A stretch of 38,954 bases of DNA, taken from contig JAQBQQ010000024.1 in NCBI GenBank assembly GCA_028286915.1, forward strand, positions 1-38,954, given 5' to 3'. Both the position numbers and the translations under genes were made by a program. The stretch comes from Candidatus Peribacteria bacterium (GTDB lineage Bacteria; Patescibacteriota; Gracilibacteria; Peribacterales; Peribacteraceae). Under the pieces are notes generated by a model, which did not search any database, was not told the DNA's origin, and saw nothing but the letters and a program-made list of their open reading frames with translations. This document shows positions 29,867 through 36,034 of this stretch, piece by piece; position 1 is the first letter of the stretch; each line of letters opens with the position of its first letter.

Positions 29867-30901
29867 TTATAAACGCAATGATGCAATCACTTGTAACCAC
29901 ACATCACTTGTAGGATCCGGGGAAATAAACTCCAGTATTCCAGTTCCAAACGGAATCAGTATTCTATTAATCCCAAAGCCAGAATCCTCCTCATATGTAA
30001 CTTCACGCCCAACATATCCGCCGACTGTTATCACTTTACTGTGCCCGTCTGAATGATCAGCAATAATATTTTTTTCTGCCATCCCTACCGTCATATTTTC
30101 AAAGACAGATATAAGCGGACTGAATTGCTCCGAAGGAACAGTAAAACTTACGGTGTAATTACCAAAGTCATTATTAGAACCCACCGAAGCCTCCGCCTGC
30201 CAATCTGCCGGATATTCAACACTGAAATTATATTTTTTATCCTTGTACTGTGCCAAGGCAGATGCCTGAACCAATTCATCATACGTCCGGCTCGGCTTAT
30301 CTATCTTCTGCGCCTTTAACCGATACACCATCTCCGCCATTTCGCCGCGGGTAATCTGCTGGTCTAAACTTGCAATAGACAAGGGAATAGCGCGTCTTTG
30401 CTCGAGATACTGAACGTAAACCTGGAACCATGGTTTGGTGGCTGTAGGTTTTTCCACCAAAATTCCCCGGTCATCCAGATGATTGGCGCCGTACAGCATC
30501 TTCGCAGCCTCTACAAAATTAATATTCGCAGACGGACGGAATGTTTTATCCGGATAACCGCCAATAATTCCGCGTCCTTTCTGCATACACACGTACATCC
30601 AGAACCATTCATCATGAACATCCGAAAAGCCTGTGAAGTCTTCCGACACCATTGGACAAAGACCCACACCATTGGGCGCGTCAGGAATAGATTCTTCCAA
30701 AATTTTCGCAAACTCCGCCCTATTAATAGTTGCATCCGGCTTATACGTTCCATCCGCGTACCCTTCTACAATTCCTTCCTGCTGCACATAATTAATGGCA
30801 TCGTAATTTGGATGTGTGGCGGGAACATCAGAAAAAGAGGCGAAGGCTGATGCCGGAACGAGAGCCAGAAAACCTATAACAGAGAGATGGTGGAGGCGCA
30901 T
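29867..30901 (-). CDS. Secreted SLH-domain protein with PsbP-like C-terminal region
   Basis: Signal peptide; FSDVPATHPNYDAINYVQQEGIVEGYADGTYKPDATINRAEFAKIL; KYNFSVEYPADW. Confidence 0.88.
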   Translation of the reverse strand: MRLHHLSVIGFLALVPASAFASFSDVPATHPNYDAINYVQQEGIVEGYADGTYKPDATINRAEFAKILEESIPDAPNGVGLCPMVSEDFTGFSDVHDEWFWMYVCMQKGRGIIGGYPDKTFRPSANINFVEAAKMLYGANHLDDRGILVEKPTATKPWFQVYVQYLEQRRAIPLSIASLDQQITRGEMAEMVYRLKAQKIDKPSRTYDELVQASALAQYKDKKYNFSVEYPADWQAEASVGSNNDFGNYTVSFTVPSEQFSPLISVFENMTVGMAEKNIIADHSDGHSKVITVGGYVGREVTYEEDSGFGINRILIPFGTGILEFISPDPTSDVWLQVIASLRL

Positions 30902-30927
30902 GGAGGAAATGAGAGAAGAGGAAAATG

Positions 30928-32505
30928 CTACTTATCGGTAAACTGGAATGAGCTGATTGTGGCTTCAAACTGCTTGGTAAGTTTTGCCTTGTCTGCAGCC
31001 TGAGCAGCCGCCACCTGCTTTGGATTATCAAACGCGCCGGGGCCGGGGAAAGACATGACCGTCTGTATATAGACACAGGGTGAAGCCGATGTCATCTGTA
31101 CATACTTTGCGCCTTCATATATTGTCCCGGCCGCTCCATCGGACCAGGTAGTTCCAGTGAATGTCATTCCAAGTATGCCCAGCGCAAACTGTGTCTCGCC
31201 TTTTGCAGGCATAACTTTTGGACATGTAGCGGCGACAGCAATGAACAGAGCAGGAGTGTCACTGCCGGCAGCATGAATGAGCGTGCCTTTGGTGCCGTCA
31301 TCCAGTTCGACAAACGTTGTGTTCTCCTTTACGAGCCAATCAGATGGATAGTCAATCCGGTACCCCCACTGCGCATTTTTATAACGTGCGACAGTGGATA
31401 ATTGCAGGCTTCCTTCAATGGTATTAAAAATAGCTTTCTGCTCGGCATCGGTACTGTCACCGCCGCAATCCCATGCCAAACGGACGGCAGATGACGGGCC
31501 AAGAATAAATGCATCCTTATTGCCGCACATACCGCCTTCCACATACACAATGTGGGTCTGATTATGCTGAATAGTGGAACCAAGCACTTTTACTATGCTG
31601 TTGCCTTGCAACTTTGAAAGCAACTGCTGTTCATCCTTTACTTTAAAGCCATCAATATGCCAATTATATTCTTGGCATTCACCACTTTTACAGGGCGTCT
31701 TGGGCCCAAGCTCTATACGCCACAACGGTGAATCCGTCGCCTCTCCGCCCTGGCTATACACATTCTCCATCTGCACAACAGGCTCCGGCCAGGCAAGCGG
31801 AATATTCAGACTTACGCCCAATTGTTCATTTATATACTGACGCACAGCTGTCTTTGCGACAGGCTTTGCGACTCCCATTAGGTCATCATATGTCGGGCTC
31901 GGCTTATTCGTCACTTTCGCCTTTAAGCGGTACACCATTTCGGCCATTTCGCCACGCGTAATAAACGGATCAAAGCGGGTGATGGAAATCGGGATGGCTT
32001 TGTGCTGGTCCAAAATACGAATATAGCGTGCATACCATGGATCGTTCGGATCAGCCGCAGGGACTTCCGCGGTCTGGTCGCCATTTCTGAAATACGTCAG
32101 AATAGCCAGTATTTTGGCTGATTCGGCAAAATTGATTTTACTGTCCGGCTGGAAAGTCCCGTTTGGATATCCGCCGATAATTTTTGACTGAGCCGCGACA
32201 CATAAATATGGAATGTACCAAGCGGTCTTGGGCGTATCTGTGAACGGAACCATAAAATTTGGATCACAGGTTTCCAGCGCCTTCGGCGTAAAGTTCGCGC
32301 CAACAACAATCTTTGCAAATTCTGCACGGTTGATGAACTGATTGGGGCGGAATGTTCCGTCACTGTAGCCAGAAACAATGCCCTGTTCTTGTACATAATT
32401 AACGGCATCGTAATTATGATGATCCGAAGAAATATCAGAAAATGATGCGAAGGCTGCAGCCGGCATCAGAACAAATGCACCGGCGGTAAGGAGGAAATAG
32501 CGCAT
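30928..32505 (-). CDS. Secreted SLH-domain protein
   Basis: Signal peptide; FSDISSDHHNYDAVNYVQEQGIVSGYSDGTFRPNQFINRAEFAKIVV; start trimmed to MRYFLLTAGAF. Confidence 0.88.
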   Translation of the reverse strand: MRYFLLTAGAFVLMPAAAFASFSDISSDHHNYDAVNYVQEQGIVSGYSDGTFRPNQFINRAEFAKIVVGANFTPKALETCDPNFMVPFTDTPKTAWYIPYLCVAAQSKIIGGYPNGTFQPDSKINFAESAKILAILTYFRNGDQTAEVPAADPNDPWYARYIRILDQHKAIPISITRFDPFITRGEMAEMVYRLKAKVTNKPSPTYDDLMGVAKPVAKTAVRQYINEQLGVSLNIPLAWPEPVVQMENVYSQGGEATDSPLWRIELGPKTPCKSGECQEYNWHIDGFKVKDEQQLLSKLQGNSIVKVLGSTIQHNQTHIVYVEGGMCGNKDAFILGPSSAVRLAWDCGGDSTDAEQKAIFNTIEGSLQLSTVARYKNAQWGYRIDYPSDWLVKENTTFVELDDGTKGTLIHAAGSDTPALFIAVAATCPKVMPAKGETQFALGILGMTFTGTTWSDGAAGTIYEGAKYVQMTSASPCVYIQTVMSFPGPGAFDNPKQVAAAQAADKAKLTKQFEATISSFQFTDK

Positions 32506-32568
32506 AAACAAAAAAAGGGAGGGAATTACCCGCCAGCATACCTGAATATTCATCCAATAACAGAAAGG

Positions 32569-33729
32569 CTACTTTCCAACTGTCAACAAACGGTCTGTCA
32601 TTGTTCCATCCGCACCCATAACGCGATACCGGACAGTGAAGTTATCAACCCACAGCAAATCACTAAAGCTGATGCTGGCAGACAGGGATTCGCCTGTACC
32701 CAGCTGTACAATTTTCCCCGCCGTATCACCGGTAAGGTTGCCCATCCACAAACTGGATGGAGCATTGTGCCCTGTACGGAACCAGATGATGCGGCGCTCA
32801 TCCGGAGACACGACTGGTGCTGCCATACGATCCGCCAGGAGACCGTTCATAGTCATGTACGTAAAACGGTGATTAACCGGATCATGCTGGTACAATGCGT
32901 AGTCATCCGGATCTTTTGCAGTCACGGCAATAATGGCGGTATTGAATCCGGCCGGTAACGCGAATGTCCGGAGCAGCAAAGAGCCCGAACGTGCTTTCAG
33001 CAATGTACCGGATAATTGTGTGGCGGAAATCGAACTACCGGCCACTGAAGAACTTGCTGCCGGTGCATAATAGCCTGACAAAGAATTCTGCTGTGCATCC
33101 TCTTCCGTGTTCTTCTGGATTTCATCATAGGTTTTTGTTGGAAGTGAGCGTATATCCGCGCGTAACCGGTAGAGCATTTCTGCCATTTCGGCGCGCGTGA
33201 CGGCACGGCTAAAGCTGCGGATGCCCGGCGGAATAACGCCGCGCTCGGCAAGCGCGTCCACATAGGCTTTATACCAGGTATCCGGACTGTCCTGGAGCGA
33301 AGAATCCACAAAAGCGCGGGCTAGTATTTTAGCGGCTTCGGAAAACGTAATGTCGTTGGCCGGCCGGAAAAGCCCGTCCGGGTACCCGTCCACCATACCG
33401 GCGCCCGACGCTTTGCAGACAAACGCGGCAAACCACTGGTTCGCCGGAACATCCGGAAACACACCGGCATTGTCCGTACACACGGCCGCCGTGGAAATGG
33501 AGCCTACAACCATTTTGGTGAATTCCGCCCGGTTTACGTTGGCGTCCGGCCGGAAAAGGCCATCGGGGTAGCCGTCTATAATTCCCTCCGACTGCAAGTA
33601 GCTCACTGCGGCAGATGCCGGGTGCGACGCGGAGACATCCGGAAAGACGGCGGCGGAAGAATGGCTTACCGAAAGAAAAAGAATGGCGATTCCGACAACA
33701 CACCCGGGCAGCATTTTCATCGTTTTCAT
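32569..33729 (-). CDS. Secreted SLH-domain protein
   Basis: Signal peptide; FPDVSASHPASAAVSYLQSEGIIDGYPDGLFRPDANVNRAEFTKMVV. Confidence 0.88.
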   Translation of the reverse strand: MKTMKMLPGCVVGIAILFLSVSHSSAAVFPDVSASHPASAAVSYLQSEGIIDGYPDGLFRPDANVNRAEFTKMVVGSISTAAVCTDNAGVFPDVPANQWFAAFVCKASGAGMVDGYPDGLFRPANDITFSEAAKILARAFVDSSLQDSPDTWYKAYVDALAERGVIPPGIRSFSRAVTRAEMAEMLYRLRADIRSLPTKTYDEIQKNTEEDAQQNSLSGYYAPAASSSVAGSSISATQLSGTLLKARSGSLLLRTFALPAGFNTAIIAVTAKDPDDYALYQHDPVNHRFTYMTMNGLLADRMAAPVVSPDERRIIWFRTGHNAPSSLWMGNLTGDTAGKIVQLGTGESLSASISFSDLLWVDNFTVRYRVMGADGTMTDRLLTVGK

Positions 33730-33841
33730 GTGGCCGGGATGCTAGCACAGGGCCGGCACAAAGAAAGTATGGAAACCATGACATACCATGCCTTCTGTTC
33801 TTGCAATTCCCTCAAGGAGAAATCTGCGTTATGCTTTTTCC

Positions 33842-36034
33842 ATGCACTTCGACCCCTTCCGCCTTGAAAAAGCCCAAAAAATCCGTGATGCCGGCAAGCA
33901 GCCGTACGCGTCTTCCTTTGAACGAACGCATACGCTGCTGGAAACAAAGACACTGACTGACGGCATGCACGCCCATACGGCCGGCAGAGTGATGCTCATG
34001 CGGGACATGGGGAAACTAACCTTCGCCACCCTGCAAGACCACACCGAGCGGCTGCAAATTCTGTTCCGCGAAGATGTTCTGGGCAAAGAAGGGTATGCGG
34101 AAATACTGGAACTCATTGATCGCGGCGATTTTATCGGCGTGAACGGCGAGCGATTCAAGACGAATAAAGGCGAGCCGACACTCATGGTAAAAGAATGGGT
34201 GATGCTGTCCAAGGCACTAAGCCAGCCGCCGGAAAAGTGGCACGGCATTGCCGACCAGGAGACAGCCTGGCGCCAACGCTATCTGGATATGATGAGCAAC
34301 CAGGACACACTCAAACGCTTTCAATTCCGAAGCCTTTTTGTTCGTCTCATGCGCGAGTTTTACTGGAAGCATGATTTTACGGAGGTGGAAACGCCGGTTT
34401 TGGTGAATGCCGCCTCGGGCGCGCTGGCCGCACCATTTAAAACGCATCACGAAGCGTATGACCTGGATGTCTTTCTGCGCATTGCGCCGGAAACATTTCT
34501 GAAGGAGTGCCTTGTCGGTGGCTTTGACCGCGTATTTGAAGTAGCCAGAGTATTCCGCAACGAAGGCGTGGACCCAAGCCACTTACAGGACTTCACCATG
34601 GTGGAGCACTATGCGGCTTACTGGGACTACAAGAAGAATATGGATTTTACCGAGCAGATGCTTTCAACGTTGCTGGAAAAAATGACCGGAACAACCAAAA
34701 TTTCTATCCCGGACCGCGACGGCAAACTGGTGGAAGTGGACTTTGCGCCACCATGGCCGCGGCTCTCTATCCGGGAAGCCATCCTGGAAAAATGCGGCAT
34801 TGATTTTATGAAAGAAAATTCACAGGCAGCCCTGTTAAAAGCCATAAAGTCCAAAGGTATCAAGCTGGAAGTAGACGTGGAAAAACTCGGTTTCGGTAAC
34901 CTGATTGATCAGCTCTACAAGAAAGTGGCGCGGCCGGACATTGTCCAGCCGACGTTCATTATGGAGCACCCGATTGAACTCTCCCCGCTTGCCCGGCGCA
35001 ACGACCATCACCCCGGTATTACCGACCGCTTCCAGCTGGTAGTCGGCGGCTGGGAAATTGTAAATGCCTATAGCGAGCTGGTGGACCCGGTGGATCAGCA
35101 GGAACGGTTTGATGCCCAGGCCTCCGCCCATGCCGGCGGCGACAGCGACGCTCATGAGAAAGATGATGACTACGTCAAAGCGCTCAGCTACGGTTGCCCG
35201 CCGTGTTCCGGTTGGGGCATGGGAGTGGACAGAATTGTGGCGCTGATAACACAGCAAACGAATTTACGAGACGTGGTGCTGTTTCCACTTATGAAGCCGG
35301 ATGAAGGAAGGGAAACAAGGGGTACAAGCGAAGCAGGGGGAACAGAGATAACTGAGCCAATTCTACCAATCAACCAATCAACTAATCCACCAAACAACCA
35401 ACCGAAAACGATACACGAACCAACGAGCCAACTATCGAACAAACCCGCGCTTCTCCAGCACGCCGAGTACGGCCACCTGCTCCCGCAAGCGCACATGCTT
35501 CTGGAAGAACATGCCGTCCAAACCAAGCCGCATCTAATTGCAACCGGTGCGGCCATGGAAGCGCTCGCCAAAAAATTCGGCGGTGACGTACAGACGTGGA
35601 AAGTTGCCGGCACGCTGCATGACCTGGACTGGGACAAGCTGGCGAAGGATTATGAAGAGCATTGTGGTACTACGCTGGAACAGATGCTCGCGACAATTTC
35701 GGCTCCCAGTGAGCTTTTGGGCGATATTCGTGCACATTACGCGACCAAGTACGGTGCCGAGTATCCGCTGGATAGTATGCTCCGCAAGTCTCTCTACTGT
35801 GTGGATGAACTCACCGGTTTTATTATTGCCGTCACCATGGTCCGGCCAAGCAGAAAAATTGCCGATGTGGAAGTGATCAGCGTGAAGAAGAAGCTGAAAG
35901 ATAAAAGCTTCGCCGCACAAGTGGATCGCGAGCAGATTAAAAAGTGCGAAGAGCTGCTGGGCATTCCCCTGGATGAAATGATTGGCATGGTGTTGGATGC
36001 AATGAAAAGCGTGGCGGGGGAACTGGGGCTGTAA
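33842..36034 (+). CDS. lysS: Lysyl-tRNA synthetase (class II) fused to C-terminal HD-domain hydrolase
   Basis: Class II LysRS through GWGMGVDRIVALITQQTNLRDVVLFPLMKP; then a low-complexity linker and GTLHDLDWDKL...SLYCVDELTGFIIAVTMVRPSRKIADVEVISVKKKLKDKSFAAQVDRE. Confidence 0.93.
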   Translation: MHFDPFRLEKAQKIRDAGKQPYASSFERTHTLLETKTLTDGMHAHTAGRVMLMRDMGKLTFATLQDHTERLQILFREDVLGKEGYAEILELIDRGDFIGVNGERFKTNKGEPTLMVKEWVMLSKALSQPPEKWHGIADQETAWRQRYLDMMSNQDTLKRFQFRSLFVRLMREFYWKHDFTEVETPVLVNAASGALAAPFKTHHEAYDLDVFLRIAPETFLKECLVGGFDRVFEVARVFRNEGVDPSHLQDFTMVEHYAAYWDYKKNMDFTEQMLSTLLEKMTGTTKISIPDRDGKLVEVDFAPPWPRLSIREAILEKCGIDFMKENSQAALLKAIKSKGIKLEVDVEKLGFGNLIDQLYKKVARPDIVQPTFIMEHPIELSPLARRNDHHPGITDRFQLVVGGWEIVNAYSELVDPVDQQERFDAQASAHAGGDSDAHEKDDDYVKALSYGCPPCSGWGMGVDRIVALITQQTNLRDVVLFPLMKPDEGRETRGTSEAGGTEITEPILPINQSTNPPNNQPKTIHEPTSQLSNKPALLQHAEYGHLLPQAHMLLEEHAVQTKPHLIATGAAMEALAKKFGGDVQTWKVAGTLHDLDWDKLAKDYEEHCGTTLEQMLATISAPSELLGDIRAHYATKYGAEYPLDSMLRKSLYCVDELTGFIIAVTMVRPSRKIADVEVISVKKKLKDKSFAAQVDREQIKKCEELLGIPLDEMIGMVLDAMKSVAGELGL

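Follow-up and report, generated by a model that had tools for sequence, protein, structure and literature searches.

Can lysyl-tRNA synthetase (LysRS) be joined in one protein to a hydrolase of the HD superfamily, and what would such a hydrolase do there? The question is raised by an uninterrupted open reading frame (33842-36034, plus strand, 730 aa, no internal stops) in a contig of a Candidatus Peribacteria bacterium. The whole contig of 38,954 nucleotides is referred to as the window; it belongs to a MAG with a genome of 1.43 Mb. ATG at 33842 is the start of the frame; a second in-frame ATG is located further upstream, at 33788. The initial annotation had proposed that LysRS is fused here to an HD-superfamily protein, and this is confirmed. 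The fusion is genuine and in frame, LysRS models are passed by its first part, HD ligands are kept in its last part, and all HD motifs quoted in the initial annotation are found in the tail. The features are listed in Table 1; LysRS, linker and HD domain correspond to residues 1-486, 487-536 and 537-730, respectively.

Table 1. Features of the fused gene, with their positions in the window
Feature	Coordinates	Strand	Evidence
Class II lysyl-tRNA synthetase (OB-fold anticodon-binding domain and class II core), 486 aa	33842..35299	+	NF001756, TIGR00499, PF00152, PF01336
Disordered low-complexity linker, ~50 aa, T/N/Q/P/S/E-rich, with 8-bp tandem repeat	35300..35449	+	pLDDT, identity, start-codon scan
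HD-superfamily domain, six-ligand H..HD..H..H..D type, with invariant KKxKxKxFAxxVxR-like segment	35450..36031	+	Ligands, AF2 model, TIGR00277
TAA stop of the fused gene	36032..36034	+	ORF reading

Judged by its sequence, the first part, which ends with ...LRDVVLFPLMKP at 35299, is a complete class II LysRS with its catalytic motifs kept. It scores 565 bits against NF001756 (cut-off 468) and 488 bits against TIGR00499 (cut-off 428), and matches PF00152 and PF01336. Among the fused relatives, the residues of class II motifs 2 (FRNEG) and 3 do not vary. The protein thus resembles bacterial class II LysRS (LysS) over its full length and above curated cut-offs, and differs from it by the added C-terminal flexible linker and HD domain. 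Another natural LysRS fusion is LysX (MprF-LysRS, NF002821). LysX carries an N-terminal lysyl-phosphatidylglycerol synthase part, which the window protein lacks; its score against NF002821 is 490 bits, below the cut-off of 742. Domains appended to synthetases are not new as such: GlyRS beta has an HD domain, and LysX a lysylphosphatidylglycerol synthase part. No LysRS-HD fusion or pairing was found in the open-access literature searched.

We wondered if the fusion might result from an assembly error or from chance read-through. Both are ruled out by 72 relatives with the same fusion, and stops are present in both other frames across the linker. The linkers of the relatives vary in sequence and length, but the frame is open in every case and both flanking domains are conserved. 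Within Peribacteria, mean identity to relatives is 9% in the linker, 70% in LysRS and 76% in the HD domain. Since no in-frame ATG, GTG or TTG occurs from the LysRS end to 35495, a position inside the first helix of the HD domain, an intact HD domain can be produced only within the fusion, given usual start codons. In the full-length structural model (pTM 0.63), pLDDT is below 50 at residues 484-535, which is consistent with a flexible tether. The linker also contains an 8-bp tandem repeat, ACCAATCA, in 4.6 copies (35365-35401). Were one repeat unit gained or lost, the reading frame would change and the HD domain would no longer be translated.

Assignment of the tail to the HD family rests largely on its relatives. 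A Pfam search of the C-terminal part, which the initial annotation had suggested, supports HD membership of the family; the window tail alone stays below the PF01966 cut-off (16.3 against 22 bits) and also below that of TIGR00277 (19.6 against 27.6 bits). Relatives carrying the same domain pass PF01966 with 22.4-44 bits. The HDIG model TIGR00277 is matched by all 68 aligned members, and Pfam HD at E<=0.01 by 64 of them. A weak Pfam match to "Goodbye" was treated as chance. The family presumably corresponds to COG2316; to our knowledge no activity has been assigned to it, which counts against a catalytic reading.

All metal ligands are conserved. In domain numbering of P0002, all 109 family members share H30, H59, D60, H73 and H98 as well as D62 close by, and position 121 is D in 103 and E in six. 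The H...HD...D pattern of the superfamily is therefore present. Two further histidines between the HD doublet and the last Asp (H73 and H98), expected of a dinuclear site, are found in all 109 sequences. Six such conserved ligands are diagnostic of a dinuclear HD site (PMC8177086). Loss of ligands on alignment, which the initial annotation had named as fatal to its proposal, is thus not observed; all six are retained. Other residues invariant in the 109 sequences are K149, K150, K152, F156, A157 and R162. The predicted structure of the HD domain (AF2) has pLDDT 95 and pTM 0.91. As estimated from close pairs, with dS near saturation, purifying selection on HD is as strong as on LysRS (dN/dS ~0.02-0.08 for both). 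For the HD domain, the role of a dinuclear metallophosphohydrolase is probable; it would act on something that LysRS makes, be it tRNA-Lys or a nucleotide (e.g. Ap4A).

To place the domain among known HD proteins, sequence profiles and predicted fold were compared with solved structures. By sequence profile, YqeK Ap4A hydrolases are closest (E 7e-5 to 0.03). By fold (Foldseek), the HD domain of E. coli GlyRS beta (7eiv, E 0.02) comes first, followed by PgpH (4s1b, E 0.03) and, lower, by YqeK, with E-values that are all weak. YqeK (COG1713, TIGR00488), an HD-domain Ap4A hydrolase, shares the HD fold and the extended H..HD..H..H..D ligand set. It differs in how far the His after the HD doublet lies from it, 32 residues in YqeK (numbers from PMC8177086) against 13 in the family studied here, which is moreover fused to LysRS. 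TIGR00488 is not among the matches of the window domain at E<=1 and is weakly matched by three of the 68 relatives. An Arg shortly before the first His is conserved in HD phosphatases including YqeK (PMC8177086); no conserved Arg occurs in the three positions preceding H30, where the best column has R in 25 and K in 23 of 68 sequences. Membership in YqeK is hence unsupported. The HD domain of PgpH, a c-di-AMP phosphodiesterase, has a similar predicted fold and six ligands, but shares just ~13% identity and occurs in another context. A ppGpp hydrolase was also rejected, as structures of alarmone hydrolases appear just far down the fold list.

Heterotetrameric GlyRS beta likewise has an HD domain within a tRNA synthetase. 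Its catalytic doublet is lost, and models place the domain close to the acceptor arm of tRNA (PMC8464048). It is therefore conceivable that the HD domain of LysRS is a non-catalytic appendage as well, binding tRNA or sensing nucleotides for regulation; the top fold match and the conserved Lys/Arg motif agree with this. We regard it as unlikely. In the family of the window protein, which is fused to LysRS, the doublet and the other metal ligands are kept throughout the 109 sequences, unlike the degenerate doublet of GlyRS beta with its heterotetramer. A long and variable linker and the occurrence of the domain alone in many phyla also speak against a mere appendage.

We then asked how widespread the association is. 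Recurrence in related genomes, anticipated in the initial annotation as a check, is evident. Loci fetched comprise 71 other class II fusions, two class I fusions, 11 HD genes adjacent to lysS and 16 adjacent to lysK; 33 further HD loci have no LysRS in view, some of them ending at contig edges. One locus tallied as adjacent (G077) proved fused on inspection and was added to the fused set. In family f1, the HD protein occurs in 53 of 68 genomes, mostly fused in frame to lysS. HD accompanies class II lysS in each of the 40 f1 genomes that possess this synthetase gene, and the 15 HD-less genomes all lack class II lysS (p 8e-8, a figure that ignores kinship). Among Gracilibacteria, fused genes are seen in families f1, f6, f9, f11, f23, f24, f28 and f34; those of f10 and f21 become apparent with genetic code 25, in which TGA encodes an amino acid. 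In a phylum-wide draw outside Gracilibacteria, 23 of 23 long frames are LysRS-HD, and six of the 17 stand-alone HD genes examined there are preceded by a co-oriented lysS at a distance of 5-1264 bases. Not every genome has HD: it is missing from several lysK genomes and many Gracilibacteria, and many LysRS of Patescibacteria carry no HD.

In other phyla (Gemmatimonadota, Kryptoniota, Bacillota, Chloroflexota and others) members of the HD family are stand-alone proteins, and neither a LysRS neighbour nor another constant partner was found there. The tie to LysRS is thus a feature of Patescibacteria, as far as sampled, and the lack of conserved neighbours elsewhere means that other phyla give no clue to function. 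No other aminoacyl-tRNA synthetase fused to this HD family was found. Five genomes estimated to be 96-99% complete (G007, G020, G036, G043 and G058) have neither LysRS class over cut-off, which reflects either assembly gaps at the locus or something unusual.

Class I and class II LysRS are two unrelated enzymes for lysylation. Many Peribacteria have no class II LysRS and possess a class I enzyme instead (PF01921 over cut-off; matches under it were ignored and taken as other class I synthetases). In these lysK genomes, the HD gene is usually next or close downstream. The 16 stand-alone HD genes beside class I lysK come mostly from genomes without class II lysS. In two f9 genomes (G347 and G348), class I LysRS and HD are even joined in one open frame, of 740 aa in the former and 737 aa in the latter, with both Pfam domains over their cut-offs. 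Since HD adjoins or is fused to the unrelated class I enzyme too, it appears to follow lysylation activity rather than one synthetase protein, and to serve lysyl-tRNA production itself.

At one locus (G031, L129:2309-2406), a lysS start codon with ~32 following codons stands directly before the ATG of lysK, and HD follows lysK. In two congeneric genomes (G059 and G066), the lysS-HD fusion is intact. The locus is best read as in-place replacement of class II by the unrelated class I LysRS with HD retained; such loci offer clear snapshots of one synthetase class displacing the other. In another genome (G002, L127), a small gene pair resembling, by eye, a Phd-type antitoxin and PIN toxin lies between lysK and HD, flanked by a duplicate of the first ~30 HD codons and by the complete HD gene.

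These loci bear on a further explanation, namely that an old lysS-HD pair came together by chance and was repeatedly read through into a fusion, so that the tie is one of co-expression only. Pairs and fusions do interchange on the HD tree (127 rows), which requires at least nine changes of class context and at least 15 between linked and alone, many branches being weakly supported. A neighbour would likewise be kept if lysK took over the place of lysS. We nonetheless consider such an origin quite improbable, because HD is linked and fused to both LysRS classes and persists across the phylum, and class II lysS without HD is entirely absent from f1. The suggestion in the initial annotation that the gene may simply co-express two enzymes is therefore unlikely to be the whole story, as HD remains with a non-homologous LysRS after the swap of classes.

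The HD domain is not the only addition to LysRS in this phylum. LysRS-DUF2000 with a separate downstream HD occurs in G035 and G049, LysRS-DUF2000-HD in G325, G326 and G651, and LysRS-HD-DUF2000 in G563. B3/4 of PheRS type is attached to class I LysRS in L180 (G092) and L227 (G108), and LysRS-B3/4-HD is found in G389. The most decorated LysRS seen (G609, L261:2405-5728) combines LysRS, HD, B3/4 and DUF2000 in one frame of 1107 aa. B3/4 is the editing domain of PheRS, and DUF2000 is presumably similar to peptidyl-tRNA hydrolase 2. Of the DUF2000 matches in relatives, 27 in all, ten belong to a LysRS fusion or lie next to a LysRS gene. No papers on COG2316 or DUF2000 were found in the open-access literature searched.

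Since other LysRS of the phylum carry domains of tRNA-editing type, instead of HD or in addition to it, a role on tRNA is equally indicated. HD might then belong to a quality-control module, together with B3/4 and DUF2000, and act on tRNA-Lys or misacylated Lys-tRNA, e.g. by removal of end or cyclic phosphates. The archaeal Trm56-HD NCBIfam model, matched by 23 of 68 members, and the best fold match, GlyRS beta HD with its position at the acceptor arm (PMC8464048), point in this direction. On the contrary, HD enzymes usually cleave phosphoesters rather than aminoacyl esters, and the fold match is weak and concerns a protein devoid of the HD residues that are invariant here. We consider this reading a serious candidate, though a somewhat doubtful one.

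The reading we prefer, tentatively and with somewhat less than even confidence, is that of a tethered bifunctional enzyme. Its first 486 aa would charge tRNA-Lys, and its last ~190 aa would form an HD metalloenzyme capable of catalysis, its site being of the dinuclear type with six ligands. The flexible linker would hold HD so that a product of lysine activation could be removed where it is made. The putative substrate is a phosphorylated product or by-product of LysRS, in the first place Ap4A-type dinucleoside polyphosphates or lysyl-AMP, with phosphate on tRNA-Lys as a close second. Hydrolysis of Ap4A-like nucleotides may occur, YqeK Ap4A hydrolases being the closest solved structures by profile. 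LysRS is the classical source of Ap4A (PMC10148737), and in 59 relatives (Peribacteria and close relatives) neither YqeK nor ApaH was found over cut-off in a search that covered these two families. Several points count against the preferred reading: the Arg of HD phosphatases is not conserved, GlyRS beta and PgpH outrank YqeK by fold, HD occurs apart from LysRS in other phyla, many LysRS of Patescibacteria have no HD, and the literature searched does not establish that class I LysRS makes Ap4A. We place the nucleotide reading slightly ahead of tRNA-Lys quality control.

An accessory domain that stays with both unrelated LysRS in all likelihood assists the reaction rather than a particular protein, and its substrate should then be a common product: Lys-AMP, Ap4A-type nucleotides, pyrophosphate or charged tRNA-Lys. 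It is well conceivable, if just short of probable in our estimate, that a phylum-wide hydrolase module dedicated to LysRS (HD, sometimes with B3/4 and DUF2000) has been attached separately to both enzymes and performs an undescribed clean-up or proofreading of lysyl-tRNA synthesis. No report of a conserved, ligand-intact HD linked phylum-wide to both LysRS classes was found in the open-access literature searched. The function of a widespread uncharacterised HD family becomes directly testable in this way, and a lysine-specific quality-control or alarmone step could be revealed in Patescibacteria, organisms with very small genomes.

In the window, three consecutive genes for S-layer-homology-like repeat proteins, apparently paralogues, are located on the minus strand (29867-33729), positioned between ribosomal protein genes and lysS-HD.
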